From Cymbomonas tetramitiformis (taxonomy: Eukaryota > Chlorophyta > Pyramimonadophyceae > Pyramimonadales > Pyramimonadaceae): 64,000 nt of DNA. The notes beneath the pieces are model-generated. The model worked only from the letters and a program-made list of their open reading frames with translations. It had not been told where the DNA came from and searched no databases. The stretch's first letter is position 1; each line of letters starts with the position of its first letter. The stretch covers positions 1 through 64,000 of the forward strand of contig LGRX02025972.1 in NCBI GenBank assembly GCA_001247695.2, given 5' to 3'. Made by a program: the position numbers and the translations under genes. Positions 11,801-56,430 of this stretch are shown here, one piece after another.

Positions 11801-14800
11801 CAAGATCCAGAACACCCAATTCCTTGCAGGCATACTTGGAGTTGAAGGCTGCTACGAAGTTGTCATACCACGTGCGACTGTCAGTGGCCACAATGTAGTC
11901 ATCAACATATGCCAGAATAATGACCGTGATGTCAAAGTCCCTTATGAAATACAGACAGGGCTCAATATCACTGCGCCTCATCCTCTCGTCGTAGGCCATG
12001 ATGAAAGCATCGCTGGTCTCAAACCACTCTTTGCCCGCTTGCTTCAGGCCATACACCGCCTTGAGGAGCTTGGCACACGTCCTCCCCTGATACTCCAGCC
12101 CCCTAGGGAGTTGGACATACAGATCCTCCTCGAGGGTCGAGTTCAGGAAGGCTGTTTCCACATCCATGTGATACACCTGCAGGGAAAGGTTCAGCGCCAG
12201 AATGATAACCAGTCTCACTGAAGACAACTGAGTACACGGGGCAAAGGTGTCGAAATAGTCGACACCATACTCCTGCTTGTTGCCCCTCACACACACCCTC
12301 GCCTTGCGCTTTTGCAACTGGCGATGCTTGTCCAGCTTGACCTTCAACACCAAAGCCATGTCCAACAGGCGAACCCCAGGGGGTACATCCTCCTTGTCCA
12401 TCATCTCGAGAGCCTGCTTGACCGTAATCAGGGCCTCCAGCTCTGTCTGGATAGCTTCCATCCACTCATTAGCATCTGGCGCCCCCATAGCTTGCTTGAC
12501 CCCCTTTGGTTCAGTCACCCCAGGTGGCAGTACATCCACTGAGTCTCCAGCACACGCCTTCGCAACCGCTGCCAAGCATGTGTGCTCAGGAGGGAAATGC
12601 ACCTTACCCAATGGCAGATCAATGTGCGTGAAGTTCGTGAGCAACATAACACAGTATGGAAATGAGCTGGGCCCCACAGCTCGTGCGCATATGATCCCAG
12701 CCTCCAGCTTCTCACGTCCAGCATCTGCCATGACCTCAGTAAATAATGGGTAGTCGACATTGAGGTCACCAGTGTGCACAGCCGAGCGCACAGCAGGCAT
12801 ATGCTTGGGCTGGCCATCCAGATAGTCCCGGAGGCTCACCCAGCATGTCACATCTCCAGCCTTCACCTTCAGCACTGCCAAAATCTCGTCGCTCTCATCA
12901 GGCAAATAGGCCCCAACACCAAGAATACCATCTTCCAGGCCACTGGGAAGGGTGTCATGATATGCCGCATCCAGCATCGTCACCATGAAGTTAGTACTCA
13001 GTGGGGCCACTGCAGAAGGATCCCATGTGGTGACCACCTTGCCCAGCTTGTCCACAGCCTCATGGAAATCTGACCATACCAGACTTGACGATCTTGCCGG
13101 ACTCAGGATCATACAGTAAGTAAGCTGATGAGACCTCAGAGTGACCAATGTATCTGAGCTGCTTTGCCCGGTCACTGAGCTTGTGCTCCCTGCTGTCTGG
13201 GTCCACAAAGGCATATGCCAGACAGCCGAACACTCGAAGAAGTGAGAGGTCATAATGTTTCCCATACAACTTGTAGTAGGGGGACTGCCTGCGTAGAGGC
13301 TTCTGGAACGTCCTGTTCAAGGTGTACACAGTGTGCCGAACAGACAGTGGCCATACCTCCACACCAAAACCAGATGTCACCAGTAGCGCTCGAGCCATCG
13401 CCTGCACCGTTCTGTGGGATCTCTCAACCCGAGCCTGGTTCTCGTGGAGGTACGGTGACCCATGGCGCTGCTCAATGCCTCGCTCCTTGCAGTACTGCTG
13501 CGTCTGTCCAGCAATCATAGTCGAGTCTCCATCAGTGTGCAGCACCATGTGGTACTTCTCCTCGAGCTTCATGCGGCTCCTGTGCCTTCTGACCTCGACC
13601 AGGAACTCCTCCAGCGCCCCCAGATAGTCAGACTTCTTCTTCAGGAAGTATACACATATCCAGGATGTGCAATCATCCAAAAAGAGAACGAACCACCTGT
13701 ATCCACCAGCACTGTGCCTGAACGGCCCACAGGTGTCAGACCACACCAATAACCCAATCTCCTCAGCCCTCTCCCTGCCCGTAGGCTTCATGGAAGGTCT
13801 GATGGCTTTGGTCAGTCTGCAAGAGACACACCTCTCTGAACAACGCAACACCAGACTCTTGGCATATTGCGCAGACGTGATACCCATGGGGACCCCCTCG
13901 TCCAGCATGTCCTGCATGGTGATGTCGCCAATGTGTCCAAGGCGAAGGTGTGCAAGCATCTTGGCGTCAAGCTTCATCGCCGTATGCCCATCCTTGTACA
14001 ACACAACCACTGGCCACTTGGTCTCTCTGACCCATACCCTGTCTTCGCCACACATCTCCAGGTTCTCCACATTGTAACAAGAATCCAGCGGAGCTGAGAA
14101 TATCGTTTCCCCAGCAGGATACTCATGAACAATGGCGAACTGGGATGTAAACTGCCACCAGCTGGCCGTCTCCCATCTGGGTAATACCAAAAGAAATTTG
14201 GTGGAGTGAGGTGCCCTATCAAAATCACTGAGTGCCTTCTGCAGGCACCTCAGGATGACATCATGCTCATAGGGCGGGTTGCCATAGCATGCCTCACCTG
14301 CCCAGTCCCTGTCGAAGCAAGGCCGGTCAGTGGTGCAATAGTTGCCCAAGACGTGGTTGTCACTGGAGGCAAACAGCTCCAGAGTGAATGGCCCATGCTC
14401 TTCGATGTGCTTTCCAGCCTTCTCAAATTTCCAGTCCGATTTGTCCCGGTCAGAGTCATCGTGATATGCCGCACAGGCCACATATGCATCCAGAGCGCCA
14501 GTCACCCGATCCTCATATATGATGTACTGGTTGCCAACCCTGGAGAATGAGAATGTCACTCCCTCACTGGATATCCGCCTGGCTCCAAAGTCAACACTGA
14601 ACCCAGCATCCTCAAGTGCCACCACTGACACCAAATTGAAGGGCTGCCCAGGGATACAGTGTGCACCAGTGAACTGCAGTCCAATAGCGCGCCCAGTGAA
14701 CACATCCAGTTTGGCAAATGTCACCGTGCTACTGCCCTCCGACGAGACAGTACCTGCCTGTACTACACTGAAAGTGGAACGAGAACTGGTATCAAAGTCA

Positions 14801-17800
14801 CCCCCAAAACTAGCCATCGAGTTGAATATGTGCTTGGAGGCACCACTGTCCGACATGGCCACTTGACCACCGCCTGCAGCCAATGGCAGGTCGCTGGTGA
14901 ACACGTCAGTCTTGCTGTTCGCAGATGCAACACACAGGGCAAGTGAGGTGCACATAGGATGCCCCCCTCGTAGGTCACAATCATGCCTCGTCATCATCAG
15001 AGCCACTGCCATCCTCCAGATCAGGCGCATCATAATACCAATCAGCCCCAGGGTCAGCGCCCTCGGGACAGAGGTGGTGCTTGCAAGGCGGACAGAATAG
15101 TCCAGATGCCCAATCATCAGAGGGGATGCCACCCACTCCTTCAAGGGGCTGCAACATGCACACATCATCCTCCTCGTCCGAGTCCGAGGCGTCCACCAGA
15201 TCAGGCATAGCATCCGAAGCATAGCCATCATCATCCGAGTCAATGTTAGAAGCTGTATCCAGAGCACTGATGGAGTTACCAGAGTCATCGCCACAATGAT
15301 GACAAAACAGCCCAGATGCCCAATCATCAGAGGGGATACCACCCACTCCTTCAAAGGGCTGCCATGAGTGCTCACCATCCTCCTCGTCCGAGTCAGAGGC
15401 ATCCACTAGAGCTGGCATAGTATCTGAAGCATAATCTTCATCATCCGAGTCAGAGGAATCACTCAGACCAGGCACACAGCCGAGTCTAGATAGTGTGTGA
15501 CAGGCCCAGGCATGATGGCCAGCAGCAATCTGTGCAGGTGTTGTGAAACTGACATCAGAGTCACCCAGTGCATACACATGCTCAGGCAATGGGTGAGAAG
15601 AGAAGGCATGTTGAAAGGCAACCTGCTCAACACCATACACCACACAGGCATCCGGTGTGGTCCCAGAGGTATAATCTTCTGGATCCGAAGAGTCATCACC
15701 ATGATGAGAAGAGCCTTCAGAGTCATAGCCACTGTGATCTGAACCGTCACTGCCATCAGACGCGGAGTCAAAGTCCCACTCATCCTCATAACCATATCCC
15801 AGCAAGGCCCAGAAGTCCTCAATCGCCTTCACCGTGTCTCGAGTAACCATGCTGAGTAAAGTTACCCATGACTGCAGCTTCTCAAAGGACCCTCGTACCA
15901 TGACCGGCTCCTTCTCAATCAGACGCTGCAGTAGACCGTGCTGCTCCGCCACAAGGTGCTTGGCACACTCCATCTTCACTTGGCACACCACTCTGCCAAC
16001 AGCAGGAAAGTGAGGATCTTCCAGCACCTTCAATGCCCTGTCCGACACTTCCACAGAGCCACTCATGAACATACTATGCACATACTGGACATCCGAAGTG
16101 TACCATGGCTGCCTGGGGGATATCTGATACCCAGGTCCAAGATGTTGCTCCCTTCCTGCCTCCCATAGGGCTTGGGTAGGATCAAGCTTCCTCCCAGGCA
16201 GAGCTGTGCACAGAGTATCAATGTAGACAAACGAGTCGTACACCGGAGCCACAGGGAAATACTTGTGCTTGTTCAATAAGAACTGATGCTTATTGGGCTG
16301 ATAGGGGTGTGACTTCTTACCAGGTCTCCTCAATGTAGAGTGCCCTCTCATAGAAGCATCAGACCTCCACCGACAGACCCCACTCACAGATTGGTCCTCA
16401 ACCTCAACAGGGAAAGAACCCTCAGAAGATGTAAGTCCACCCAGAACTGCATAGTAGTTGTGCAGGGAGATACCAGATGTAGACCCAATACAGTCTTCCA
16501 CAGTGCAACCAGAGATAAATTGAGGCATGTCCTCAGAGAAACAGGTAACCACGCTGTCCAGCTCACAGATTGCATACAGAGCCTCCCCAGAAGCATCCAC
16601 ACCAGGGTCCTGCTGAGCTTCAGTGACAGCAGCCGCACGATTGGGTAGCTTCCCATGCTTCTGGTAGTCCTGGACCCTCTTCATTATCGCGTCCCTCCTC
16701 TTGGGATTCTTCTTGAGGTACTCCTCCCGCTTGTCCTCGTGAGTCACAAAGCATTCCTTGGACGAGTGCCCAGTCATATGACATATCGGACACGGAACCT
16801 TCTTGAGCATCACAGTACGTTTCTGCTCCTCCTGCTTGCGCCTGTCCTCCACGATTCCAGCACCCGTCTCTGTAGCTGCTGCTGAAGTAGCTATAACGTT
16901 GTCGTAGTGGTCACACACCGCGTCACTCAGCTCCTGGAACGACGGTATCTTGTTCTTGGAGTACATAGAACGTACCAAGACATATGCCGGGTTCAAAGAA
17001 TTCAGCACCATAGCCACAAAGACCGCCTCCAGGCTGGCAACATGAAATTTCTCACCGGTCGGCAGGAATTCGCTCGTGTACGCATATTCCTTCACCCTGT
17101 CGAGAATCTGCCGCGCACTCAGAAAGCCCGGCAGTGGGTTAGCAAGCGACGCAAACTTCTTCGTGCCATCAAGCAGAGCCTTAACCTGCCTCACAAAGTA
17201 CGCAGAGCCCGTGCTCCGACGCATTTTAACTAGCTGCCGCCAGGCCAAGACACCGTCCGCCTCCTCGCAGTACGTCTGCACAACCGCATTTGCCGTCTTG
17301 GAAGTCACGGCCGACAGAAAGTCGTGAAACAACTGATTCGCTGCCACAGAGAAGTGCTCGTCCTTCTTGATGTCCTCCAAGTCGCGCGCGTCCGATAAGA
17401 GTAACGCCAGCGTCCGGTGACGCAAACATGGCACAATTTTACCGCGGAACTCCAGCCACTTGCTGTCATTTTCTGCTTCCTGACCAGAATAAAGTTGTTC
17501 AGACTTGAAACTCTTCAACATTTCCGCCAGAGGAGGCAAAGGTACGCCCGCAGTACCATCCGCAACGTGAGAGTGAACACCAGAACTAGACATACCGGAT
17601 TTCGCGGCCTCAGGAGACGCAACAGCTTCTCCTGTCCCCGCATTCTGATTCGCAGCCAACTGGGGCACTGTCTGTGCCAGGACCTGAACCATTTTCATAA
17701 GCTCATTTATACGCGCGTCTTGCTGCAAAGATAGCTGTTGTTGTCGCTCATCGATAAGAGCTGTCAGCGCTGCAGAGTCCTCCCCAACTGAAGTTCCACC

Positions 17801-20800
17801 TTCCGACAGCACCTCCGAGATATCGCCGTAAGTAGATTCCACACTCAGTCCTGTTGGGGTCCGCTCCGCAAGCTTGGCCTTGTCTTGTTTCATACTCATT
17901 TCCGAAAAACGCGCAGCAAAAATTTGCGTGATACAACCGTAGGTTAACACTTACTGTGTAGTAAGTGGGCCCAAAACCTGTAGGAATTCGAGAGTTTCGT
18001 TTTCACAAAAGCAATCATGAACTTTCATTATCAAAAGATATACCAGTTCGCAGCTCGAAACGCCACGAACATTTGCGCGCCATCATTACTGATTGGGCGA
18101 TCTTATGTGAAAGTTCACCAAACAGACTCCTACGTGTCACTGTCGTGTTCATAACGACCGCAGTGACACTCTAGAGTACAGATGAACTCATTACGCACTT
18201 CCCGATGGTCATCAGTGATCTGACGGCCACGATTAGTTCAGCAGATCTACAGATCTAGATCTAAGGGTTCCATAGGGTTTCTTTAGGGTTTCTTTAGGGT
18301 TTCTTCAGGGTTCGAGCATCCTGACTACTGTACAATGTCTAGATAGTCATGCTTTACACCAAACTGATCAGCAGCACTTGCAGATTCCAATACACCTGGC
18401 ACCAGCAGCCACTGTCCATCGCTCATGCCACCTGGCACCGAGATGCCCTCCTGGAAGCTCGTGCCACCTGGCACCAGCAGCCACTGTCCGTCGCTCATGC
18501 CACCTGGCACCAGCAGCCACTGTCCGTCGCTCATGCCACCTGGCAGCAGCAGCCACTGTCCATCGCTCATGCCAACTTGGCAGCAGCAGCCACTGTCCAT
18601 GGCTCATGCCACCATGGCAGCAGCAGCCACTGTCCATGGCTCATGCCACCATGGCAGCAGCAGCCACTGTCCATGGCTCATGCCACCATGGCAGCAGCAG
18701 CCACTGTCCATGGCTCATGCCACCATGGCAGCAGCAGCCACTGTCCATGGCTCATGCCACCATGGCAGCAGCAGCCACTGTCCATGGCTCATGCCACCAT
18801 GGCAGCAGCAGCCACTGTCCGTCGCTCAGGCCACCTGGCAGCAGCAGCCACTGTCCGTCGCTCATGCCACCTGGCAGCAGCAGCCACTGTCCATCGCTCA
18901 TGCCAACTTGGCAGCAGCAGCCACTGTCCATGGCTCATGCCACCTTGGCAGCAGCAGCCACTGTCCATCGCTCATGCCACCTGGCAGCAGCAGCCACTGT
19001 CCATCGCTCATGCCACCTGGCAGCAGCAGCCACTGTCCGTCGCTCAGGCCACCTGGCAGCAGCAGCCACTGTCCATGGCTCATGCCACCTGGCAGCAGCA
19101 GCCACTGTCCATCGCTCATGCCAACTTGGCAGCAGCAGCCACTGTCCATGGCTCATGCCACCTTGGCACCAGCAGCCACTGTCCATCGCTCATGCCACCT
19201 GGCAGCAGCAGCCACTGTCCGTCGCTCATGCCACCTGGCAGCAGCAGCCACTGTCCATGGCTCATGCCACCTTGGCAGCAGCAGCCACTGTCCATGGCTC
19301 ATGCCACCTGGCAGCCAGTAGAAAGCCTGGCCACTGACCTTACTGGAGCAAGGCCGACGTGGGCGAATACATGATACTCTGAGCCTGCCTCATTCACGCC
19401 GCAGGGTGCCCACATTCCGCATAGTTTGAGCGGCGAGATGGCTGAGCCCGGCCTCATTCACGCCGCAGGGCGCCCACAGTCCGCATAGTTTGAGCGGCGA
19501 GATGGCTGAGCCCGGCCTCCTTCACGCCGCAGGGCGCCCACAGTCCGCATAGTTTGAGCGGCGAGATGGCTGAGCCCGGCCTCATTCACGCCACGGGGTG
19601 CCCACATTCCGCATAGTTTGAGCGGCGAGATGGCTGAGCCCGGCCTCATTCACGCCGCAGGGCGCCCACAGTCCGCATAGTTTGAGCAGCGAGATGGCTG
19701 AGCTCGGCCTCCTTCGAGCCGTGGAGGGATGGCTGGACCGAGAGATGTGGCGGCGGATACGAAGCGATCCCGAATCGATAGCGAGCCAAGTGGAAACTGC
19801 ACAGCGGACATGAAGGGGGCGCGGGGGCTTCCACCTGCTCGCCGCTGTCGATGCGGGCTTGTTGCTGAGCGGCGCACTCCTCGATGCGAAGCTTGGGCAT
19901 CCCGGCCACGATGGCCGCCGTCATGCCTCCCATCTGCACGCCCGGAAAACAGAGGCACCGAGATCATTCTTCGACGAGGTCCGATCGATGTCCAAACGCT
20001 GCCTAAGGGGGGCCTGTGTTCCCGAGAGCGCAGGCCTCTAAACGCAATACCTTGAAGCACAGCAGATGGCACTGCAACCCCACGTGGCGGCGCCTTCGTC
20101 ACAACGGCAGGTGGCATGGCATTGGCGCATCTCCGGCAAAAAGACGGTCCCTGCTTTCAGCGTCCCTGGTGGAAAGAAAGGAGGCAGTGGAGACGGCACG
20201 GACGCGCTCCATGGCGCACTCTAGTCTCTGCTATGGGACTCTTTCTGGAGGAGCTGCGTGTTGGAGAAGCATCGGCGTGCATCGGTCGTGATCCCACCGC
20301 CTCAATTTCCTCAATGATTTCGAGCGCAGACTTCTCCAACTGGTCGGTCAGAGACTCCATCATGTATGATCCTGCCCATGGATCTGCTACCTGATCGGAG
20401 GGCCGGGGCAAGCTGTGAGCATAACGGGCAGATCACACACATCACGCTTTCCTGGAAGGCAGGGGCCGCATGTATTAAGAGCTGGCCACGTGGCGCACAC
20501 TGTCTCCTCCGGTCTCTACGCGGCGGGCACCAAATGGCCGTGCAAGGGGACGACAGGAAAGGGCCAGGGAGTATGCGCAAGTATGCAAGTAACTTTCGGC
20601 TTTCGTTTGAGGAGATTCGGTTACACCAAAGCACTGCACGTGATGCACGCCGCGGCTACCTCAACCAAACGATGATCAATGCGCCGTTGCGGGCTACGAC
20701 TGGCTTTGAGCGGGGCGCCGCGAATGACGCGCTCGAGAAGGCTGCTTGGGAGATGTCTCATTCACCCGAGGATGCCACGCTCGAGTACATGTCCGCAATC

Positions 20801-23595
20801 CAGGACTTCATGGCCCCGGCAATCCACGAGAACGAGCGCCTTCGACGCGACAAGAGCATGGGCTAGCACGTCTGAAGACAAGCGGACTGCGCTCACAGCA
20901 CTCCTTCCGCAAGACGGCTAGCGTATGTAAGCGATGGGCAAAATAAGGGAGGTGCAAGGAGCGACGGGGCGGTGACTGGGGCCCAACAAGGGGGGAAGCG
21001 GGGAGCAAGCCGGCACTGATTGAGGGATCGCACTTTAGTGATCCCTGTCTCATGCTGCAGCACAAGTTGTGTGTTACGTGCAACGTGGGCCGAGAGCTCC
21101 GTGGGGAGTGCAATGGCCTGAGGGCGTCATCACAACCGCCAGGACACGCATCAGTCCCGTTCCACCCATGCTGCTAGAGGAGTGGGATTCCACGGGATTG
21201 GAACGCCCTTTCCCGGATTGCAGGAGTTTTGGCCCACCAGCGCTCTCACCCTCGCCCCCGCCGTGCCCTCACAATCGCTCGCTGACCGTAGGTCACTGTT
21301 CACTATGTTCTCGGGCTTCTTAGATTTGTAGAGATCAGCCCCATCACTCTGTACCGCTGGGTCCCCTCTTATCCACGAGATCAACATCGCCCGCCAGGCG
21401 TGCACGGGAAGGGGAGATCGGCGCCAGGCGTGCACGGGAAGGGGAGATCGGCGCCAGGCGTGCACAGGAAGGGGATATCGGCGCCAGGCGTGCACGGGAA
21501 GGGGAGATCGGCGCCAGGCGTGCACGGGAAGGGGAGATCGGCGCCAGGCGTGCACAGGAAGGGGAGATCGGCAGGATGGGAGTGCATTGAAGCCATTGCC
21601 AAGGCTCGGGCTCGAGGCGCAAACGTCCGAGGAGGGGAGGGAGGGAAAGCAAGTTTTTCGAGCACCTCGTCAAATGAGTTTGTGTGCAGACTCTGAGTTC
21701 CGCCGAAGATGGCCCCCATAGCCTGGCCACCGGCAGGGGTGGGACGTCAGGGCAGGGCAGCATCCCCAGATATTGTACACACACACACACAACATACATA
21801 GTGTAGCCGGTCTTCTGCGGTGTGCCAAAGGAGTCGGTCCAAGAATAAACAAACCCACACACTATGACGCTGAGGGCGAGAGGAGGAGCTTGCCATTCAT
21901 GCCATGGGTGGCACTGGTTCTCTCGGATCAACATTTCATTCTATCACAACATCATAGTTCAGGGAACTGTCACCTCCACGGTGGTGCGGATGATGTTGTT
22001 CATGGGGTCCTGCTCCGTCAGCGAGTACCCCGAGGTCTGGGAGTGCGTGCGCAGGATGAGCGACTTCTCATTCTTTGGCTCGAAGCTGGCGGAGCAGCGA
22101 GATCCACCAAGCCGGAGTGGAGGGGCAAGAGGGGAGGGGGGCGGCGGGGCAAGAGGGAATGAGGCGGATCAGAGATCTGGTGCGATCGGATTTGTTCTGT
22201 GCGCACACAGAGGGCACCGCGGGTTCCCAGACGGCGCGCCACAATTGGACCACCATCAGGTAATCAGGCAGCCCTTCGCAGGATATGCCCATTTCCACGG
22301 AGAAGAAGGGTAAGCCGGGTCCATGGCTTGGGATCGGCCAGAACTGTAAATGCAATCGGCGGCCACATACTGAACGGCATGAGATCGGCCAACAAAAGCC
22401 AGCCCACCATCATCCCAGTGGATGTGAGAAGCAAATCAAGAGCAGGGCGGGGCCGTGACAAGATACCACAAACGCATACATATTCCCAACCCAAATGCAA
22501 AGCAGCATGGAAAGATGATCGGCGGCCACATACGCACGGTGCACGGAAGTGAATGCCACAGGACTCGCAGCATGCTAACTCTGGAAGAAGACGGCGCTCT
22601 CAGGGGTGAGACCTGGCCTTGGACGTGTTACCGGGGTGCTGCGTACCGCTGCTTGACCAGCTTTGCCCAAAGGCGCCGCGCAGCGCGCATCTTAGCGATC
22701 TCCACGTAGAAGTTCATGCCGATGGCCCAGAAGAAGGAGAAGCGCGGAGCGCACTCGTCAACCGAGAGTCCCGCTGCCTGCACCCAGCCGCCCCCTCTCG
22801 CGCCCTCCAGCAACCTTCCTCACTGCCACGAAACGCGGACGATGGCGGGGACAGGAAATGACACAAGGAGCTGCCATGGCCATCTTCCGGATGCAGCTGC
22901 AAAACTCTACGCTGTGCCGGGTAAGTGCATGGAGCGCAGAGAGTGACGGGCGGAGGCATTGGGAATTCGGCGGGTGTCCGAGGTCACCTGAGCGCATCTG
23001 ATGTACTCCAAACCGTCCGCAAGCGTGAATGCCAGCTCGAGAGTCGAGTTCGCCCCGGCCTCCTGCGCGCAACAGCTCAGGTGCACACAAGTCGGCGCTC
23101 CTTTCAAGCAGGCTTCCAGCGGCCACCACCCGCTGTTCCACGATTGCTACTGTACTGTAGTGTAAGAACTGGCCGTGAAAGCATGTCGTTGCAGTCCGTG
23201 CACGATGCCCCAGCGCGGACTCTCGAGGCGCGCCGCGTCAGCCTCGGAGAGGCCTCCCCATCGATTTAAATCGATTTTAAAGCCCTTTCTCTTTCCCTGC
23301 TCTTGCCCGTGGTGCAGTTTTCACAAGCGAGGGTGAGATATGAAAAGTGGCCGCAGCTCTGCGCCTCCCAGATGTCCCAGCCCCAAACTGCATGCCCGAG
23401 GTCTTTCACCGCCCTTTCACAACCCTTTAGGCAAGCTGAGCTCCCCATGTTGGACAAGGTAGAAGCCCGGAGGGCCCTGCGAGCAAAGCTACCTGCATAT
23501 GGTACCCGGAGATGGAGATGGAGTTGTAACGGGGCATGTACTTGCTGGTGTAGGCCATGATGTCCCCGATGAGACGCATGGATGGCTGCGGAGGG

Positions 23596-23627
<32 letters not shown>

Positions 23628-26610
23628 CAGCACGTCGTTCTGGATGGTTCCTGCAAGGCATCGTCCGCACCTTTCCTCTCCTCATCAGCACGTCAATCTA
23701 TATGGTTGGCCGGGAGCCTTCTACATGCCCCTATCTGGCCATTCCGCCCGGGGGAGGAAACGTGCAAGCCAAAGCAGCCCCTTGGAGCCAAAGCGCCCGC
23801 CTGAAGTTTGCGACAAACGCTTTCGCGTCATCAAACTGGTAGGAAAATTGGTCGAATAACGGCAAGCATCCGAATAGAAATAGCGGCGCCAACGAGTTGC
23901 TTCGTCTCGCGGCGCACCGAGCAGGAGGGGAAAGCTGCGACTGGGAGAGCTATGCCTGCGCCTCTCACACAGGCTTCCTCCGCCCCACACCAGCACCTCG
24001 GCACTATTGTCCGCCCCTTGCAGTGCGCTGGAAATGGCGTGGCACCTCCTTTGCTTTGTCGCCGCCCGCACCAGGCATGCCACTTGTGCCCGGCTCAGCT
24101 CGAGGGCTTGGCGCGGGGCTTTGCTTCGACGTACCTGACAGGGCGGAGGCGGGTACCCCCTGCTCCTCCGCAGCCACGATGTACATGGCCTGCCGCGTAC
24201 ACGCCGAGGCACCCCCGACATGACCCTCAGTCCCCGGAGGCTCTCACCAGCGCTCACTAGCTCGCACCACATCCTGCGGCAATTTCGTAGCCCCCCCCGC
24301 AAGGGGCGCTACGAGAGGCAGGGCTCGGGCCGCACCAACACGGGAAGCACGGCGCCATTCATGGTCATCGAGACACTCATCTTGTCCAGGGGGATGCCGT
24401 CAAAGAGGATCTGTTGTGAGGTGCGCCGCCCAAGCCCGCCCACCTCCACGCGCATATACCCAAGTCACGCAGCACAAGGTGGCCGGTCGTTCGGTGGCAG
24501 TTGTGAGTGGGACCCAAGAGTCCGCCGCCAAAAGTAATAGAAGAGGTGACTTTTATGACCGCGAAGCCGGTGATAAATGGCCGTGAGCCATGTGCACAAA
24601 GCCACAGGCCGACCCCGAGACAACACCACCCGACAGGAATGGCTCAAGTCTGGGCCCTCAGCCTCCACCAATTAAAACCCTACTCAAAGGTAGATCCTCG
24701 TTAAACACAGCTGAGGTACGTAGCCTGAGACACAGCTCCAGACAAAACTGAGATTAAATGTCCCTTCAGTGCACAGTCACCTCCATTGCTGATAAATTCC
24801 CGACGCAGAGGAGGCAGAGAGGGCAGAGAGGCGAAGAGAATAAGCAAAGGGTCACGTGGCAATCGACGCATTCGACTATCGATCACGTGCTTGAAGCTGG
24901 CTGAGTAGAAGCATCTACACTGCCAAGTGCACAGCAAGAATCCCTGTATTAGGGTTTTGGTGTCTGGAGGAGGGGGCTGTGTAGCGGGAGGGCAAGGGGG
25001 CTGTGCAGGGCAAGGGAGGCAAAGGGGGCTGTGTAGCGGGAGGGGAGGGAAAAGGGGGAGGGACAGCGTGAGGGCAAGGGGGCTTTGTAGTGGGAGGAGG
25101 GAAACGGGGGAGGGACAGCGTGAGAAGGGGTTTAATAGCGGGGAGGAAACGGATCGCAGCCTCAGCCAAGGGACAGTGGCAAAGAAGCAGCCACAGAGAT
25201 CACTTTGGCACAACGCGGCGCACCTTCATATCTTCGACCGAGTCCACCGCAACCCCAGCCATGCCCACGTCTCCCGAAACTCGCGGGTGGTCGGAATCGT
25301 ATCTGCTCCAGAGCGCGCACTCGCAGTGAAAAACTCCGCGGGCTCGTGAGCCTTGCCGGGCAATCGACCTCAGACGGCGCCGCAGAACGTGGACCAAGTG
25401 GAGGACGCGTGAAGACCAACCAACCACTTCATTCCGTCGAGCCTCAAAGACAGATTACCACAGCGAAGAAACAGGAGGAAGGAAATGGACGGAAACCTGT
25501 GCTTTCCGGCATAAGTGTGTGCAAAATTGTACCAGCAGCCAACACCCAAGTTACGGACTGCAATTGTGAAGAAGCGATTTGTCCCTGAATTGCCAGGTGT
25601 CTGCGCACCTCTGCCGAGCCCCACCTTCGTGAGATACTCGAACATGGGGGCCGGAGCTTCAAACGGGTGCACCTGCTGGCAAGGTGGGAGTGCTATGGTA
25701 AGAGCCCGATGGTGGGTCTTCAGACATACCCTCGATGTGTCGCCAAATCGAAAGCGACACTGAGACCCATTTGTCCTTTCTTCAGGTTTGCCTTGTAGAA
25801 CTCGTTGGATTCTTGTGCAGTGCTAAATCCAGCGTACTGCCGAATAGTCCAAGGCCTTTGGGTGTACATAGAGGCATACGGGCCCCTTGTGAAGGGGTAC
25901 ACTCCCGGCGCCTGCGAAACGTGGAATACGTGGCACCCCGTGCAAAAGGTGAAACCCAAGCTTCTTCGGTATCTTAAGCCGGTTCGAAAAAGAAAATTCG
26001 AACTTGACTACGTGACCGTTATGCGTCAGTAGAAAACATAGAAAGCCATAGGAAAGGCGCGAAATTTGCGGTATACGACGAGATGCTGGCCTGCACCTCA
26101 TCCTCCAAGGACTCCACATCCGCTTTAGTGTACACAGGCTTCACGTCGAAACCCTGCACTCAAGCAAGCAATACGACCCGAAATACGCACTGAGGTCGCA
26201 GCCCCAGTTTGTGAGCTGTTGGAGGATTCTGGCCCCACACAGAGAGATCCACACTTTATAGGAGAACACAACTCAATGTCACAAAAACACAATGTCGCAG
26301 AAACTCGAAGTATTAGAAAACAAAACAAATTGCAACAGATCAGCGGGGCCTTGCTTGACGTTCGAAAAAGGAAACAGTACGATTTCATAGGACGTGGAGA
26401 TCGGTTCACCTCTGGAGTCTTCCAGGTGAGAGTCTCCCATGGGTTTTTGCCTTTACACTCTTTAGTGGCCCGTGCTTCCCATTTGCTCAAGATTTCCGAG
26501 TCGCTCGACGCTGTCGTAAGAGCGCGAGCTGGGCCTGCAGGAGATATGCAGCGATGCCAAACAGCTTGGATACCGCGAGTCAGTCCCACGCCCCAGTGGT
26601 AGTTGCGCAT
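5879..26610 (-). CDS. MUT: Methylmalonyl-CoA mutase, mitochondrial, multi-exon
   Basis: This enzyme isomerises (R)-methylmalonyl-CoA to succinyl-CoA using adenosylcobalamin. Exons on the minus strand, with AG acceptors and GT donors: 26610-26410, 26153-26097, 25911-25730, 25302-25224, 24410-24336, 24189-24135, 23650-23493, 23062-22988, 22777-22647, 22085-21974, 21722-21666, 20390-20298, 19933-19835, 10306-10180, 10077-10040, 9604-9526, 6681-6590, 6482-6389, 6127-5879. Phases agree at every adjacent junction. The start (ATG at 26610) opens a basic, Ser/Ala-rich presequence fitting mitochondrial import. Family landmarks in order: [91 protein letters not shown], then the B12 site GQDGHDRG (DxHxxG, axial His) and GGVIP. 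Two family segments were not found: one between 21666 and 20390, one between 9526 and 6681. A possible short exon lies near 6770-6805. The copia insertion is intronic. Confidence 0.93.
6773..6806 (-). other. MUT: Possible additional MUT exon
   Basis: On the minus strand, CCGCAG is followed by a frame reading [11 protein letters not shown] and then GGGTGAGTG. This matches in position, and weakly in sequence, the mutase linker before the B12 domain (a histidine/arginine-rich stretch before a VSG motif). The exon bounds are uncertain, and at least one more piece would be needed to keep phase. Confidence 0.3.
7860..8280 (+). repeat. Degenerate ~30-bp minisatellite in a MUT intron
   Basis: The core CACCTCAAGCATTTCACACC, followed by CGAATCCCCC, recurs more than ten times with small indels. 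The later units change to CATCTCAAG(C/T)(C/T)GCTGGATCC. It is C-rich on the plus strand and therefore G-rich on the transcribed (minus) sense. Confidence 0.8.
8348..8457 (+). repeat. 30-bp minisatellite, about 4 copies
   Basis: The unit starts GGCAGACGGGCACCTCCCAA and recurs at 8348, 8378, 8408 and 8438, nearly without change. It lies in a MUT intron. Confidence 0.9.
9089..9350 (+). repeat. ~21-bp minisatellite, about 12 copies
   Basis: The unit CTTCCCGCAAGCCAGGAGCAT recurs with variants (AGGGGCAT, GAGAGCAT, CCGCCAAGC). It lies in the MUT intron just downstream (minus sense) of the exon at 9604-9526. Confidence 0.9.
10375..10379. repeat. Left target-site duplication, CACCT
   Basis: It is the same 5-mer found directly after the right LTR (18393-18397). 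Five base pairs is the usual copia target duplication. Confidence 0.75.
10380..10782 (-). repeat. 3' LTR of the copia element (403 bp)
   Basis: It matches the right LTR throughout but lacks one 11-bp TCTTTAGGGTT unit. In element sense it begins TATTGG and ends CCTACA, so the usual leading TG is TA in both LTRs unless the boundary is moved by 2 bp. Confidence 0.9.
10917..13265 (-). CDS. Copia pol, reverse transcriptase and RNase H part
   Basis: The frame is open for 782 codons and carries copia RT landmarks in order: a variable linker, [37 protein letters not shown], the catalytic YVDD (about 11900), then RNase H with [15 protein letters not shown] and NQGAIHLA. The meaningful part starts near 13075, where the integrase frame ends. 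The two frames overlap by about 200 bp, and the junction needs one base to be skipped (+1). That can be read as a single inserted T in this copy or as a sequencing error. It is in the same strand sense as the host gene MUT. Confidence 0.9.
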   Translation of the reverse strand: MGNIMTSHFFECSAVWHMPLWTQTAGSTSSVTGQSSSDTLVTLRSHQLTYCMILSPARSSSLVWSDFHEAVDKLGKVVTTWDPSAVAPLSTNFMVTMLDAAYHDTLPSGLEDGILGVGAYLPDESDEILAVLKVKAGDVTCWVSLRDYLDGQPKHMPAVRSAVHTGDLNVDYPLFTEVMADAGREKLEAGIICARAVGPSSFPYCVMLLTNFTHIDLPLGKVHFPPEHTCLAAVAKACAGDSVDVLPPGVTEPKGVKQAMGAPDANEWMEAIQTELEALITVKQALEMMDKEDVPPGVRLLDMALVLKVKLDKHRQLQKRKARVCVRGNKQEYGVDYFDTFAPCTQLSSVRLVIILALNLSLQVYHMDVETAFLNSTLEEDLYVQLPRGLEYQGRTCAKLLKAVYGLKQAGKEWFETSDAFIMAYDERMRRSDIEPCLYFIRDFDITVIILAYVDDYIVATDSRTWYDNFVAAFNSKYACKELGVLDLVMGIGVRWGPGVAYLSQSGYISQMIDTYGLKDAKPASLPMSPGCSLAPSDGKDTTIPFRGLLVQLQWIARCTRPDIMAVVSALSRFCASYGPEHFVALKQVVRYLKGTVSYELVLRTTSSVPRGLGLACGALPMCIYTDADYAGCKTTRKSTSGIAVYLCGSLLIFSSIMQRCVSLSTTEAEIIAMSEGAREIKYIINVLNDLVDICNPVPMYCDNQGAIHLASDYVNNNRSKHIEVRNMYIRELVKSVTAEALYVCSADNTADIFTKPLPLPPFLMHRESLGIMKLQDTTSED
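13060..14978 (-). CDS. Copia pol, protease and integrase part
   Basis: The protease motif is DSGAS near 14855. It is followed by an integrase zinc finger (HLRLGH, then CxxC in SCRL) and the DD(E) core with [17 protein letters not shown] and ARVERSHRT, ending in the copia-type [10 protein letters not shown] motif. The frame stays open upstream to 15402, but that upstream part is only the antisense-frame shadow of the acidic Gag tail. It ends at a stop at 13060, one base out of frame with the reverse transcriptase. As it stands, this element could not make a full Pol without frameshifting. Confidence 0.88.
14981..17899 (-). CDS. Copia Gag with long duplicated acidic tail
   Basis: I chose ATG 17899; the frame is open upstream to 17950 but without an earlier ATG. 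The product is about 970 residues, much longer than a usual copia Gag. The N-terminal third holds the capsid-like helices. A CCHC knuckle, [14 protein letters not shown], lies near 16790. The C-terminal ~330 residues are Asp/Ser/Glu-rich and contain a duplicated block with [17 protein letters not shown] in each copy (DNA near 15095-15140 and 15315-15355). The stop at 14981 is followed by the pol frame at +1. The acidic duplication has no counterpart I know in standard copia Gag. Confidence 0.82.
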   Translation of the reverse strand: MSMKQDKAKLAERTPTGLSVESTYGDISEVLSEGGTSVGEDSAALTALIDERQQQLSLQQDARINELMKMVQVLAQTVPQLAANQNAGTGEAVASPEAAKSGMSSSGVHSHVADGTAGVPLPPLAEMLKSFKSEQLYSGQEAENDSKWLEFRGKIVPCLRHRTLALLLSDARDLEDIKKDEHFSVAANQLFHDFLSAVTSKTANAVVQTYCEEADGVLAWRQLVKMRRSTGSAYFVRQVKALLDGTKKFASLANPLPGFLSARQILDRVKEYAYTSEFLPTGEKFHVASLEAVFVAMVLNSLNPAYVLVRSMYSKNKIPSFQELSDAVCDHYDNVIATSAAATETGAGIVEDRRKQEEQKRTVMLKKVPCPICHMTGHSSKECFVTHEDKREEYLKKNPKRRDAIMKRVQDYQKHGKLPNRAAAVTEAQQDPGVDASGEALYAICELDSVVTCFSEDMPQFISGCTVEDCIGSTSGISLHNYYAVLGGLTSSEGSFPVEVEDQSVSGVCRWRSDASMRGHSTLRRPGKKSHPYQPNKHQFLLNKHKYFPVAPVYDSFVYIDTLCTALPGRKLDPTQALWEAGREQHLGPGYQISPRQPWYTSDVQYVHSMFMSGSVEVSDRALKVLEDPHFPAVGRVVCQVKMECAKHLVAEQHGLLQRLIEKEPVMVRGSFEKLQSWVTLLSMVTRDTVKAIEDFWALLGYGYEDEWDFDSASDGSDGSDHSGYDSEGSSHHGDDSSDPEDYTSGTTPDACVVYGVEQVAFQHAFSSHPLPEHVYALGDSDVSFTTPAQIAAGHHAWACHTLSRLGCVPGLSDSSDSDDEDYASDTMPALVDASDSDEEDGEHSWQPFEGVGGIPSDDWASGLFCHHCGDDSGNSISALDTASNIDSDDDGYASDAMPDLVDASDSDEEDDVCMLQPLEGVGGIPSDDWASGLFCPPCKHHLCPEGADPGADWYYDAPDLEDGSGSDDDEA
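17948..17967 (-). promoter_or_regulatory. Perfect hairpin in the retrotransposon leader
   Basis: CACTTACT and AGTAAGTG form an 8-bp perfect stem around a GTGT loop, 11 bp inside the 5' LTR. By position it could be part of the primer-binding or RNA-packaging region. No tRNA match to the primer site was recognised. Confidence 0.5.
17979..18392 (-). repeat. 5' LTR of the copia element (414 bp)
   Basis: It carries one more 11-bp unit than the left LTR. Both contain a run of AGGGTTT/TTTAGGG-like units (here about 18264-18312), resembling plant-type telomere repeats or telo-box promoter motifs, and a TCTAGA-rich segment. Confidence 0.9.
18393..19320 (+). repeat. 36-37 bp minisatellite, about 25 copies, hosting the copia insertion
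   Basis: The unit is a (C/G)AGCAGCAGCCACTGTCC core followed by ATCGCTCATGCCACCT, with an ATGG variant block in the middle. Two partial units lie left of the retrotransposon (about 10325-10379), so the array existed before the insertion. All three plus-strand frames read through it as long Ala/His/Ser-rich ORFs. These are artefacts of the repeat. Confidence 0.95.
19393..19712 (+). repeat. 64-bp minisatellite, 5 copies
   Basis: ATAGTTTGAGCGGCGAGATG recurs at 19421, 19485, 19549, 19613 and 19677 (period 64). It lies in the same MUT intron, directly 5' (plus sense) of the exon at 19835-19933. Confidence 0.92.
20558..20866 (+). pseudogene. Unrecognised open stretch antisense to a MUT intron
   Basis: The last ~100 codons of a plus-strand frame ending at 20866 read like ordinary protein (balanced charge, [19 protein letters not shown], then [10 protein letters not shown]). 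The upstream part does not. I cannot assign a family. It may be a captured exon fragment or chance. It falls in the interval where one MUT exon is missing, but it is on the opposite strand. Confidence 0.2.
21394..21572 (+). repeat. 30-bp minisatellite, 6 copies
   Basis: The unit CCAGGCGTGCACGGGAAGGG followed by GAGATCGGCG recurs six times with single-base variants. It lies in the MUT intron after the exon at 21722-21666. Confidence 0.92.
24958..25145 (+). repeat. G-rich degenerate minisatellite
   Basis: Repeats of GGGGGCTGTGTAGCGGGAGG and variants make a purine/G-rich plus strand. It lies in the MUT intron between the exons at 25224 and 24410. Confidence 0.7.
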
Positions 26611-27082
26611 CGTGAAAGATTGTGCTGCGTGCTGCGTGCTGCGTGGGCAAAATGTTTACAAGAAGCTGAAGCTGAAACTCGCGTGAGCAAACACGAGCTG
26701 TGGCTTCGTCGAACTGTTTCTAAGACAAAATATCAAATCTCATAATCACATTCAGGGATACTGTAATATTGTAATTGTTTGCTAGTGTTTAAAAATGTGT
26801 CGAATTTACGGATCATTTAACATGTTTATGTAGAGACAATTACTCTAATAATGTTGCTATCGGTAACATGGATTTGCATACGATAGGAAAAGGAGAGGGA
26901 ATACTGTACGCTTCGGCTTGAAACGGTGCGGTGATGACACGGGGTGTCACGCTTGTGTCACGACGCGACGCGACGCGCCGCGCCGCGACGCGAGCGACGC
27001 GAGGTCACGACGCTCATTCGTCAAAAACCATGAATCAGTAGGACATTCAACAGTGCGAAGCAGCACACTCTAAAACGATATT
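26611..27082. other. MUT upstream region with GACGC pentamers
   Basis: The intergenic region between the MUT start and the tRNA gene. It contains a (GACGC)n-like run at about 26961-27003, a low-complexity motif also found at 34570-34605 and 41575-41640. No TATA box is obvious. Confidence 0.4.
27072..27075 (-). terminator. Pol III TTTT terminator of the permuted tRNA
   Basis: Four T on the transcribed sense, about 8 nt after the 5' half. It is expected if the permuted gene is transcribed as one precursor that starts upstream of the 3' half. Confidence 0.65.
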
Positions 27083-27164
27083 GTGCTAAGCGGGCGCTCT
27101 ACCATCTGAGCTACTTCCCCTTCAGAGTGGAGAAGGGGGGCATCGATCCCCCTACCTCCCGCAT
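27083..27164 (-). tRNA. Circularly permuted tRNA-Ala(AGC) gene
   Basis: Read on the minus strand, the 3' half comes first. It runs 27164-27128: loop bases AT, anticodon-stem strand GCGGG, variable loop AGGTA, T-arm GGGGG/ATCGATG/CCCCC, acceptor strand CTTCTCC and discriminator A. A 7-nt spacer CTCTGAA (27127-27121) follows. Then comes the 5' half, 27120-27083: acceptor GGGGAAG, D-arm GCTC/AGATGGTA/GAGC, G26, CCCGC, TT and anticodon AGC at 27087-27085. Every stem closes: GGGGAAG with CTTCTCC gives the G3:U70 wobble that specifies alanine, and CCCGC pairs with GCGGG. A Pol III-type TTTT lies at 27075-27072. GATA before the 3' half can pair with TATC after the 5' half, fitting a relaxed bulge-helix-bulge at the termini. 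No second 3' half follows, so this is not a normal intron-containing tRNA. Confidence 0.88.
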
Positions 27165-27559
27165 CTTATCCATTGTTGAATGACAATTTGATGACGATTA
27201 ACTCAAAAAATAACAAGTTTAATGTAATACATGCGCCTTGCTCATAATCAAATTTAAACCATCACCCAATCGGCGGGCAGCGCGGTGGCGCTGGCGGAAA
27301 CAGGATCGAAATCGAATCGGAATGCTAATCGATGAATCGGATGCAAAACCCTCGAACGTCGGGGTGGCTAGCGTCACAGGGTTCCTAGCTTCCTACTGGC
27401 TAACCTCGTGTTCCCATGTCGTAGGCTGCTTGCTCATCCGATCGTCTCATCGTCATGTTTCACTTTCTTTTCTCTCTGGTCTCAGTTTCAGTTTCTCTGT
27501 GACAGATCGAGATCGGATGGTTCGGTTTGAATTTTGGAGTTAAAGCCAACGTCGATTGG

Positions 27560-27965: not shown

Positions 27966-28335
27966 CTGCGGCATCGGCAGCGGCATCGGCATCGTCCTGC
28001 GGCACTGTCCATGTCCACGTCACTGCGTCACCGTCACGCTCTAGCCTACTTGTACTGCAAATTAGAGCCTTTATACTTTATATACGGATACTGTTATTAC
28101 TACACGGCCGAGGCCATCCCTTGCTGTATCGGATATCGGATATGAAAACACTCGACTGACTGGACCAAACCACCGAAGCGTCACACGACAGTCATATACA
28201 AATACTCAATACACATCGTGTGTTGCGTAATCGTGCTGTTTACTTTTCCACTCTACGCAATCAGGACCAGCAGCTACTATCGACAACTGTGATATTGCAT
28301 ATCCCCCTTTGGCTCACTGAGTGCTAGCAGTTGGA

Positions 28336-31300
28336 ATGTTGCCACCTGCGCAACCTCGAGCAACTTTGCCTGACCTTACACGAAGATATATATGGGCTTC
28401 TCTTGCTGTGGCTTTATATCTGGGAGTTTTGCCCATGGCTGATTGTGTGACAGCCGATGGGAGTGCTTTGATTTGGCCCAGTCAAACCGGTGTGCTCATG
28501 GACACTTGGGGATACGATGTAAAGCAGTTGAATAGGTTGGGCGAGTTGTCTGAAGGCGTCGCCAAGCTGGTGTTCCAAGAACACGGGTTCAATCTGTTAA
28601 GAACACCAATTCGAGCATGCTATCATCCCGATTGGAAGGCGAGATATCCCAACAACGGACATCCCTACCCTGGAAAAGTTAACAGAGCAGCATACGAAGG
28701 AGAGATATCAGACGTCGTCCACGCCAAAGCCGTGAAGCCTGACATCAAGCTTTTTGCTAGTCTCAGGCTCTGCGTGAATGAAGAAACTGGCGTCTTCTAT
28801 CCGGCGCTACCGAACTGGTGCCTTTACAACGAGACGGACAAACAGCAGGGAAAGTGGGATGGGAGCAAGGACACCCAAGTGAAAGCTCCCATGTATGCCG
28901 AACTCCTTGCGGATTTCCTCACCTTTTCCGAGTCAGCCGGTATATTCTACGACTTCTTGGGCATCGAAAACGAAAGTGGCTTAATTGGTAACAAAACGTT
29001 CGTGGTGCGCCCTTTAGCGAGCGCTTTCTCTAACTAGGTCATTGAATAATGTCATACGGTGTACTTGGAGGAGGCGCCTTCCCTGGCGCAGGTCTATGGC
29101 TGAACGCGTTTAGGCACCGGTCGTGGTCTGCGCGCCTGTAACACACCTCAGACACGCGTCGCGTGCGCGCAGGACGTTGTTACCGAACTGAAAACCCTTC
29201 AAAAGCTCCGCAACTTCACCTTGCCGCTCTTCGTTGGCCCAGATTTGTATGGCCCCCCAACGACCTGGTTTCACGGGCTGGAGGGCCTGCACGGCGGTGA
29301 TCTTATGAACGTTGCCGGCACGCACTACTACTCTCAGCTAGTTTTCAGCACCAAGAAGGGCCGGTTACATGTACAGGTGTGCCCCTGTAACGCAATAAGC
29401 CCTATGAGAGCTGGGAAGAGTATGCCTCCCGAGATCCCCCAGATAGAGTGCCGCCTCACGCAGGGCGAACAGCGAACATTGACGCCTCAACTAAACGACT
29501 GAAGCCGCCTCGTGATAGAGAGCTACAACAGCAGGCTGCGGTCAGGAGTGTGCGGAGTGAATTCAGCACACCTGCAGATACAACGCGCGTATCTATCGGC
29601 GCAGCGCGGCCTGCATATATGACAAGCGTAGGTGCAGGCACAGTGCGCCCTTTCGCATTGCGATCGTTGTTGTCTGATTAAAACACTTCAGAGGTCGCAC
29701 GCGTGCGTGTGTTGCATCCGCAGGATGATTTGACAAACTTTGTTGCCTCAGTGCCACCGAACACGCCCAAGTGGCACAGTGAGGTACTTTGCCTATCTCC
29801 CTACGTCACCGCCACTATCTCTGCGTGCGGGTATAATCAATAGAGTTCGCCTTCATGAAGAGATGGTCGTGCACATGCAAGAGCGAAGACAGTCGAAGGA
29901 GAACGCACTTGACCTTTGCACTGAAGGCTTTCACGGACGCAGCGGCGAGCGCGGCATCCTTTCCCAAGCAGGGCGCAAGGCAAGGCTAAACCTCCAACAA
30001 GGAAGAGCCACGTGGCCCTTTCGCCCGTTCGAGGGTCTGAGGGAACTGACAGCTCTATGCTCGCTCTTCTTTCAGGTACACTGGGTCAAGGCTAAAGATA
30101 TCGTGCCAACTGACCTAATTGGCCGCAGCGCTAACCACATCGATGAGCTGGAGAATCTGCTGGCCGTGCAGGCGAATCTGTACGACCATGGCTTCAGCGG
30201 CTTCGTGTGGTGCCCACCCGCCGCAGCCACCCTGCTTTCAGGCAGCTAGGCAGATAGCGAGCTTCGTGGATGGTCCAAGCGGCGGCGTTTCAACTGATGA
30301 CAACTGGCTTTTGTGCGCGCAGGTGGTCTTATGGCACGAAGACCGCAGAATTTGCCCCAACCTCGACCGATATCCAGCGCGTTGCAATGCATGCCGTTAC
30401 TGAGAGCACGCTGATGCGGACTCCGGTGCTCATGGACGACCATGATGGGAAAAATGCAAGCCGTACGTCCCCCTCGCTGCTCATCCCCGTTCGCCCATCC
30501 TATATAAGCTCAGGCAGCGAAATGGCGCCTTCCGGCTTGAAGACACTCTGAGGGCGTCCACGCGCAGCAGCGTGGATTTCAAGCATTCGGCGAGATGTGG
30601 AGAGCTGCATACCGGCGGTGACGACCCTTCTCGGAAGTCCGGGTCTGCTTCAGGGACAGGAAGCGCAGGCAGGACGCAGCTTGCAGCGAGTGGGCCACGT
30701 CATGGAGCGCTGCAGCTGGGCGACCAATTTCAGTCTGCGGGTCAAGTCAGGAAGTGCTGCATGTGAGCAGCAAGGACACATCGGGTGATTGCTAAAGAAA
30801 GCCTCTGCTTGTGGAGGAGTGGCAGAGTTGTGCTGAGGGAGAGGGGTGTCTCGTGGGGCGAGCGGCAGAATACTCCTTTACCTCTCGAGCTCTCCGCCGC
30901 GGGGACAACATTGTGGTGTGGGTCACGAACAACAACGATGCGGCGTGGGAGGCGTACCCGTTCATCCTAGCGAGTGGAAACCTGCAGGCGCCATGTGGCG
31001 CAAGTGACGCGGGATCCAGTATTCGATGGGATCAGTTCTACCTGGCCAGCACCAGCACCAACACATCTGGCAGCCAGGACCCCATGTGGGGTAATCGGTC
31101 TGGAGTGGCCACAGTCTTGGGGTCCAACGCTTTTTCAGTGCCCATTCCAAAGCGCACGGTGACGATGATCACACTGGACGTGACGGGCGTGGTGGACCCT
31201 GCGATGCGTGTAGCGCGCTTTCAGCCTCATGCTGACGTGTACGCCCTTCAGAAGGGTGATGCGGGGGTCCTAGACGAGGTGTACAAGCTGAACGCACAGA

Positions 31301-54676: not shown

Positions 54677-55170
54677 GCAGGCCAGGCCGCACTCGCTCCA
54701 AAGGTTACGTGCCCCATGCTTGTCTCTTGTGGATGTGCATGTTGGATAGGTTCGTGGCTTAATTAGTTAACCGCTGTTCGACTGAAAGAGCGGACGGCTC
54801 CTGAAAGTTTCTGCGTAAATAGGTGGTCAGCGAATATGTGGATACACACAGCCGGTGACTGCGCCCTGGTGCGGAATCACGTGCTTAGGAAAAGTCACCG
54901 GCTGTGCGTATTCATTCAGGTATGCAGGCCAGGCCGCACTCGCTCCAAAGGTTACGTGCCCCATGCTTGTCTCTTGTGGATGTGCATGTTGGATAGGTTC
55001 GTGGCTTAATTAGTTAACCGCTGTTCGACTGAAAGAGCGGACGGCTCCTGAAAGTTTCTGCGTAAATAGGTGGTCAGCGAATATGTGGATACACACAGCC
55101 GGTGACTGCGCCCTGGTGCGGAATCACGTGCTTAGGAAAAGTCACCGGCTGTGCGTATTCATTCAGGTAT
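54677..55170 (+). repeat. 247-bp perfect-looking tandem duplication with a 14-bp inverted repeat
   Basis: Copy 1 is 54677-54923 and copy 2 is 54924-55170; I saw no difference between them. Each holds CACAGCCGGTGACT and its exact reverse complement 32 nt later (54847/54893 and 55094/55140). Each ends ATTCATTCAG followed by GTATGC, which can act as a splice acceptor. Confidence 0.9.
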
Positions 55171-55350
55171 GCGGACTCCCCTGTTTTCCGGCATGCACGC
55201 TGTGGGATGCCACTGCTGTGGGAATATCCCATGGTTTCCGCAGTGGATTCAAACATGCTTTCGTGAACTGGTGCGCAGGCCTCCGAAGCTGCAACCGTGC
55301 AGGGAGGCGGCCTCCCCCGGTCGCTGGAGGAGTGGTCGAGGAAAACCCGG
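55168..55350 (+). CDS. Possible small exon with CHCCGN
   Basis: Starting at GTATGCGGACTCC after the second ATTCATTCAG, a frame reads MRTPLFSGMHAVGCHCCGN and then an Arg/Pro-rich tail, to CCCG|GTAAGA near 55350. Acceptor and donor both fit the consensus. No family was recognised. Confidence 0.3.
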
Positions 55351-56204
55351 TAAGACCGTGAACTTTTCCTTCCCCTCCCTTCCCGTACGGGATCCCGCCC
55401 GCCCGCCCTTCATCTAGTGAACGCAGCCGCCACTCCGCGGGTGCCTGGTCAGCAGCTTGTCGGGCGACTGTTCATCTGCGGTTGCGAATCAGCGGCCAAG
55501 GGGTGGACAGCGAGTCATGGGTGGGATTGTTTTTTTTTCCCGGCATATATCTTTGTGTATTTCTTTGTAGAAAGGTGCATAGGGTGCACGCAAGGAACAT
55601 AGGACCCAGGGACAAAGGGTGCGGGGAGGCTGCTCCGCTCCGCGCCGAATCAGGCGCGTGGCGCGTGCGGCGCTCTCCCCGGCGCTGTGCCTTATGCTGC
55701 TTCATCTGCGGTTGCGAATCAGCGGCCAAAGGGTGAGCAGCGGCGCTGCAGGTCGTGGGTGGGGAGGGATGCGCGAGGGTGCGCGTACGGTAGATAGGTG
55801 CATAGTGTGCTCGCAAGGACCATAGGACCCAGGGACAAAGGGTGCGGGGAGGCTGCTCCGCTCCGCGCCGAATCAGGCGCGTGGCGCGTGCCGCGCTCTC
55901 CCCGGCGCTGTGCCTTATCCTGCTTCTTCTGCGGTTGCGAATCAGCGGCCAAAGGGTGAGCAGCGGCGCTGCAGGTCGTGGGTGGGGAGGGATGCGCGAG
56001 GGTGCGCGTACGGTAGATAGGTGCATAGTGTGCCCGCAAGGACCATAGGACCCAGGGACAAAGGGTGCGGGGAGGCTGCTCCGCTCCGCGCCGAATCAGG
56101 CGCGTGGCGCGTGCCGCGCTCTCCCCGGCGCTGTGCCTTATCCTGCTTCATCTGCGGTTGCGAATCAGCGGCCAAAGGGTGAGCAGCGGCCAAAGAATGG
56201 CTCT

Positions 56205-56430
56205 CCCCGGGCCATCGACAGGGCCATGGATACCTGGCGATGTCGGTCCCGAGCTGCGCATGCTTCCACAGCCATCGAGTGTATGCCCCTGTGACAGTGT
56301 CCGTTCGCGTGTTTTTGTAGGGCTGCTCTCCCTGCTCTCTACGCACATGGCTGCTTGTAATAGTCCCCGGCGATGGCAAGTGTTTCATATGGTCGCTAGC
56401 AGCGGCAACTACCGGCCAGTTTAGTGAGCA
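56205..56430 (+). other. Unique 225-bp insert inside the 223-bp array
   Basis: It starts after GAGCAGCGGCCAAAG and ends before GAGCAGGGATGGCGG. It contains TTTTTGTAG and no credible coding frame. Its length is close to one repeat period. Confidence 0.5.

Follow-up and report, generated by a model that had tools for sequence, protein, structure and literature searches.

The window analyzed here (the whole stretch of 64,000 nucleotides from contig LGRX02025972.1 of the prasinophyte green alga Cymbomonas tetramitiformis) carries a permuted tRNA-Ala(AGC) gene on its minus strand, at positions 27084-27163. Read along that strand, the 3' half comes first, followed by a spacer and then by the 5' half, and the following features can be distinguished:

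27189..27193, minus strand: CATCA motif, 30 nt before T38; a weak candidate for a start-site element in this copy, which lacks an upstream tRNA
27164..27168, minus strand: leader TAAGA directly before T38; its TAA is predicted to pair with T32-T33-A34, and a cut is expected before T38
27128..27163, minus strand: 3' half of tRNA-Ala(AGC), T38-A73, 36 nt; encoded first, CCA absent
27121..27127, minus strand: spacer CTCTGAA, 7 nt, from A73 to G1; presumably removed from a circular intermediate
27084..27120, minus strand: 5' half of tRNA-Ala(AGC), G1-A37, 37 nt; encoded second, anticodon AGC
27072..27083, minus strand: trailer CAATATCGTTTT following A37, with a Pol III-type T run at its end

Rejoining the halves at 37/38 gives a 73-nt tRNA-Ala(AGC) that ARAGORN calls as tRNA-Ala(agc) and whose minimum-energy fold is a full cloverleaf (-33.9 kcal/mol). 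The order of the halves, the cloverleaf, the short spacer without a terminator, the missing CCA, and the downstream T stretch are all those of a type II permuted gene. The initial annotation had proposed a tRNA-Ala gene with its 3' half in front of its 5' half, and its anatomical claims hold up: the ARAGORN call on the rejoined halves supports the permuted order and the anticodon AGC, all stems pair across the halves (21/21 pairs) with the alanine G3:U70 wobble among them, seven nucleotides (CTCTGAA, 27127-27121) lie between A73 and G1, and TTTT follows the 5' half. The permuted gene at this locus thus stands, to which we add the minus strand, a dispersed family of copies, and neighboring tRNA-Glu and tRNA-iMet genes in that family, none of which the annotation contained.

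The surroundings of the gene hold a Copia-like retroelement on the minus strand (10917-17950, with RVT_2, integrase, and SH3-like domains), the frame of which also gives a weak match to a Dam methylase. Long tandem arrays occupy 54677-58831, including two copies of a 247-bp unit and a 223-bp unit repeated about 8 and 4 times. A DUF7869 open reading frame of the window shares 94% identity with CYMTET_55576 of C. tetramitiformis. A protein search with the open reading frame at 28321-29037 returned no matches.

ARAGORN predicted no tRNA in the unrearranged 64-kb window, and Rfam reported no family there at gathering score; that permuted tRNA genes are overlooked by standard annotation is recorded in both PMC3978253 and PMC12633428, the latter with regard to Auxenochlorella, also a green alga with permuted tRNA genes, which tRNAscan-SE initially missed. 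A scanner purpose-written for tRNAs permuted at 37/38 gave a single match in the window, with 21/21 pairs, whereas among 40 dinucleotide shuffles of the window only 2 gave any match, the best having 18 pairs. A covariance model of permuted tRNAs scored the site at 77.4 bits, a value that is not independent since the site is among the model's 12 training sequences. With ranges of 67.9-78.3 bits for complete permuted genes, 44.4 for one broken member (L020), up to 58.4 for conventional neighboring tRNAs, and 65.3 for a phage stretch, this model discriminates by score only partly.

The phage stretch (L022, positions 995-1076 of IMGVR_UViG_3300031992_000025) lies in a phage tRNA cluster, where a 3' half with CCA precedes a 5' half and the acceptor is fully paired across the two. 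We rejected it as a permuted tRNA: the rejoined loop lacks T33, and related phage records (15 were compared, 8 of them with tRNAs annotated at the matching stretch) show the border of two ordinary tRNA genes. It may be a permuted relic or a decayed tandem pair.

A single DNA search starting from the window locus, in which all 13 candidates were scored, uncovered a family of 13 places in the genome, namely 11 complete permuted genes in eleven contigs and two broken members. In one of these (L020) the 5' half is truncated and the 3' half short by one base, and in the other (L021) only the 3' half is left. The mature 73-nt sequence is identical in 10 of the 11 complete copies, with a single change in the remaining one (L017), while the spacers are 7-14 nt long and of variable sequence; a TTTT ends the gene 4-18 nt after A37 in every complete copy (11/11). 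When nine pairs of copies were compared, every pair agreed at 37/37 positions of the 5' half, and eight pairs at 36/36 of the 3' half (35/36 for L013 and L017), yet the 220 nt further upstream agreed at only 79-168 positions. Selection or sequence homogenization likely keeps the mature sequences alike, and homogenization could be the cause instead of selection. Two of the loci, L014 and L015, agree at 99.3% over a length of 1805 bp; they could be alleles or the products of a recent duplication.

That the locus is an assembly artefact or a chance resemblance, the former having been named in the initial annotation as an inversion or duplication that would undo the claim, can be practically dismissed, above all owing to the ten further complete copies in other contigs, besides the 21/21 pairs, where the best of 40 shuffles reached 18, and the identical mature parts within mostly differing spacers and flanks, which do not fit one assembly error.

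None of the 13 matches of the DNA search with the window locus is a conventional tRNA-Ala(AGC) gene of this sequence. The same search method reports a 35-nt piece at 89% identity, so that a near-identical conventional gene should have appeared, whereas a diverged one could escape. AGC is the usual main alanine anticodon of eukaryotes. A conventional tRNA-Ala(TGC) gene is present in the genome, behind a tRNA-Lys. ARAGORN also reads a tRNA-Ala(AGC) at positions 1175-1248 of L037 (contig C21358), which we rejected as a conventional alanine tRNA given that it has C3:G70 instead of G3:U70.

As for the splicing signals, the leader TAA of the window copy forms three of the four helix pairs with T32-T33-A34, amounting to a relaxed bulge-helix that falls one pair short of the strict four-pair helix. 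The same three leader pairs (with TAG in L016) are shared by 10 of 12 rows in the comparison, and L018 and L019 have three of four possible pairs as well, from a different set. A tRNA-splicing endonuclease domain (PF01974) was found at one place (L043, 57.6 bits), at a level that does not distinguish the subunits, and tRNA-Glu(TTC) genes of this alga carry an insertion at 37/38, the position of canonical introns. Machinery for 37/38 junctions should therefore exist.

A new feature of the family is what lies in front of it. Seven of the 11 complete copies follow an intact conventional tRNA gene at a distance of 5-6 nt, on the same strand and with no terminator in between. This gene is a tRNA-Glu(CTC) in five cases (L010, L012, L014, L015, and L016), where T38 begins six nucleotides after A73, and a tRNA-iMet in two (L013 and L017), where the linker counts five nucleotides. 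The linkers read GTAANN or GTAGNN after tRNA-Glu and TAANN after tRNA-iMet. Even the broken members partake in this arrangement, as L021 stands behind an intact tRNA-iMet and L020 behind a decayed one (0/500 shuffles match iMet equally well). Counted the other way around, a permuted tRNA-Ala follows 5 of the 7 full-length tRNA-Glu(CTC) genes and is absent behind the other 2. The Glu-linked copies represent at most four independent contexts, since L014 and L015 are near-identical, and three of these contexts (L010, L012, and L014/L015) have diverged flanks in common.

The four other complete copies (the window copy, L011, L018, and L019) lack an intact upstream tRNA. For the window copy, no tRNA was predicted in L009 or in the window, so that it does not count as dicistronic, and its upstream 110 nt match neither tRNA-Glu nor tRNA-iMet beyond what shuffles give. 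Upstream of L011 lies a 19-nt stretch that resembles tRNA-Glu at 17 positions (2/500 shuffles do equally well, in one of ten comparisons), which is suggestive at most.

Short linkers are also seen between conventional tRNA genes of this genome (L024, L025, L034, and L035), in Leu(AAG)-Lys(CTT) and Asp(GTC)-Cys(GCA) pairs. The former lie partly in 233-bp tandem arrays, and the members of the latter are 1 nt apart according to ARAGORN. Opposite another tRNA-Glu(CTC), on the other strand of L049 (1588-1679), lies a tRNA that ARAGORN leaves unnamed and that we read as tRNA-Tyr(GTA) with an intron.

The review of the field leaves open how a gene whose B box precedes its A box comes to be transcribed, and transcription from an upstream promoter has been proposed for algal permuted tRNAs (both in the sections of PMC3978253 on this subject). 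In the 150 nt upstream of the window copy there is neither an A box nor a B box. Of 39 distinct tRNA predictions, 13 have a CATCA in the preceding 25 nt, compared with 2.7% of random 25-mers, and the motif is found somewhere in 709 of 4000 random 150-mers; the CATCA at -30 of the window copy is thus a weak candidate for a start-site element. A-box-like strings lie upstream of 12 of the 13 family places, and also in 1349 of 4000 random 150-mers drawn from the window. Because of this background we abandoned an upstream A box as a rule for all copies and kept only the boxes inside recognizable tRNAs, by which the copies without an intact tRNA lose one support and our confidence is slightly lowered. 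In L018 and L019 (at about 1471-1500) an A-box-like string sits exactly 30 nt before T38, equal to the distance from position 8 to position 38 of a tRNA; it is perhaps the remainder of an outer 5' half, in two related loci and at a position noticed post hoc.

Taking these observations together, we are fairly confident that the window gene belongs to a dispersed nuclear family of type II (37/38) permuted tRNA-Ala(AGC) genes that mature by the circular route and mostly act as second cistrons. With the anatomy, the copy number, the near-identity of the mature parts, and the adjacency to other tRNAs as the starting point, transcription, cutting, circularization, and decoding can be inferred from known pathways. 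Pol III would produce a transcript running from the leader through the 3' half, spacer, 5' half, and trailer to the T run, in which the acceptor, T, and D arms could form and the anticodon stem would be closed between the two ends of the transcript. The tRNA-splicing endonuclease would then cut both ends at 37/38, aided by the pairing of leader TAA with T32-T33-A34. Ligation of A37 to T38 would give a circular pre-tRNA, from which RNase P and RNase Z would excise the spacer.

In the linked copies, the internal A and B boxes of the leading tRNA would drive a single Pol III transcript, whose two products would be separated by RNase Z behind A73 of that tRNA or by the splicing endonuclease at 37/38. 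The 3' trailer of the upstream tRNA would hence double as the leader of the permuted gene, and the upstream tRNA would supply both the Pol III promoter that a gene with inverted A and B boxes lacks and the splicing strand. Having no upstream tRNA, the window copy would need an external promoter or may be silent. We lean slightly toward the further reaching reading as well, in which permuted tRNAs serve as second cistrons, the 5-6 nt linker is trailer and splicing strand at once, RNase Z and endonuclease act on one precursor, and the AGC tRNA-Ala of this alga arises wholly via circular RNA.

A different question is how the family came to be dispersed, and here one tentative option is a mobile cassette, perhaps reverse-transcribed, which would have spread by inserting at tRNA gene 3' ends. 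It concerns the origin of the copies and is compatible with the explanation given above. The same 80-nt unit does occur 5-6 nt behind two different tRNAs in otherwise unmatched contexts, and the alignment between L013 and L016 is confined to the unit itself, but the flanks common to three of the Glu-linked contexts point to segmental duplication for those copies. Altogether, we regard such a cassette as unlikely, though worth keeping in mind.

We find it rather improbable that these are permuted genes of the known type, each with its own AT-rich or TATA-like upstream promoter as proposed for Cyanidioschyzon, and that the tRNAs in front are incidental. The window copy and the three others without an intact upstream tRNA, which have nonetheless retained the mature sequence and the T run, would fit such promoters, and upstream-promoter transcription is what the pertinent part of PMC3978253 proposes for algae. 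On the other hand, the gap of 5-6 nt in seven complete copies would place a separate promoter inside a tRNA gene, and the same layout recurs behind two unrelated tRNAs (Glu and iMet).

The notion that the copies are relics, i.e., tandem tRNA-Ala genes that have lost their outer halves and yield no tRNA, is very improbable. Loss of outer halves is one of the proposed origins of permuted genes (PMC3978253, in its part on origins), L020 and L021 are clearly broken, and the window copy has no evident promoter. Relics would scarcely be expected to agree at all 73 mature positions in 10 of 11 complete copies despite diverged flanks, or to be left as the only genes of this sequence among the 13 matches, with AGC usually the main alanine anticodon of eukaryotes.

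The interpretation as a family of type II genes acting mostly as second cistrons can be set against what is known of permuted tRNAs elsewhere. The type II genes of the prasinophytes (Ostreococcus and Micromonas) and the Bigelowiella nucleomorph, as treated in the relevant part of PMC3978253, are alike in the 37/38 junction, short spacer, relaxed hBH, and downstream T stretch. Neither an alanine tRNA nor an AGC anticodon appears among the green algal permuted tRNAs in Table 1 of that review, where no species has more than one gene for a given anticodon, apart from O. tauri with two Ser(CGA) genes, whereas here there are 11 complete copies of one tRNA. Their position behind another tRNA (7/11 complete copies) likewise sets the Cymbomonas genes apart from the known type II green algal ones. 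The tRNA-Ala(TGC) of Cyanidioschyzon merolae is also a permuted alanine tRNA, with an 8-nt spacer and no encoded CCA, but differs in its type IV junction (59/60), its anticodon TGC, and the TATA-like upstream promoter proposed for it (PMC3978253).

Permuted Arg(TCT) may be a second instance in this alga. A candidate was found on contig C25144 (L026, 1436-7388, in the stretch 17000-24800), in six copies within the fetched part of a tandem array. It has a 7-nt spacer, and rejoining its halves gives a full cloverleaf that ARAGORN calls as tRNA-Arg(tct). Its distance from the preceding tRNA-Lys(CTT) is about 75 nt, and greater in the first unit; a tRNA-Glu(TTC) stands ahead of the Lys gene, and no T run occurs in the 130 nt examined. 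A permuted Arg(TCT) is also present in O. tauri (Table 1 of PMC3978253).

The closest parallel to the linked arrangement comes from plants. Kruszka and colleagues reportedly described, in 2003, dicistronic tRNA-snoRNA genes in which Pol III uses the promoter of the front tRNA and the RNA behind it is released by RNase Z. The Cymbomonas arrangement differs in having a permuted tRNA in second position, with a linker that would additionally act as a splicing strand. We encountered no description of a dicistron of a tRNA and a permuted tRNA in the titles or abstract openings that our searches of the open-access literature gave, which does not prove its absence, and PMC5741210 makes no mention of tRNA or permuted.

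Type II permuted tRNAs as such are already known; what is new, as judged from the genome sequence, is a multi-copy permuted alanine tRNA that mostly takes the position of a second cistron behind an ordinary tRNA. For this alga, the adjacency to tRNA-Glu and tRNA-iMet offers a concrete and testable answer to the puzzle of how permuted genes are transcribed. If there is no conventional gene, an abundant and essential tRNA would come from many permuted copies, and the circular pathway would bear a heavy load. Finally, with near-identical tRNAs, differing flanks, and broken members side by side, the origin and spread of permuted genes may be studied within one genome.
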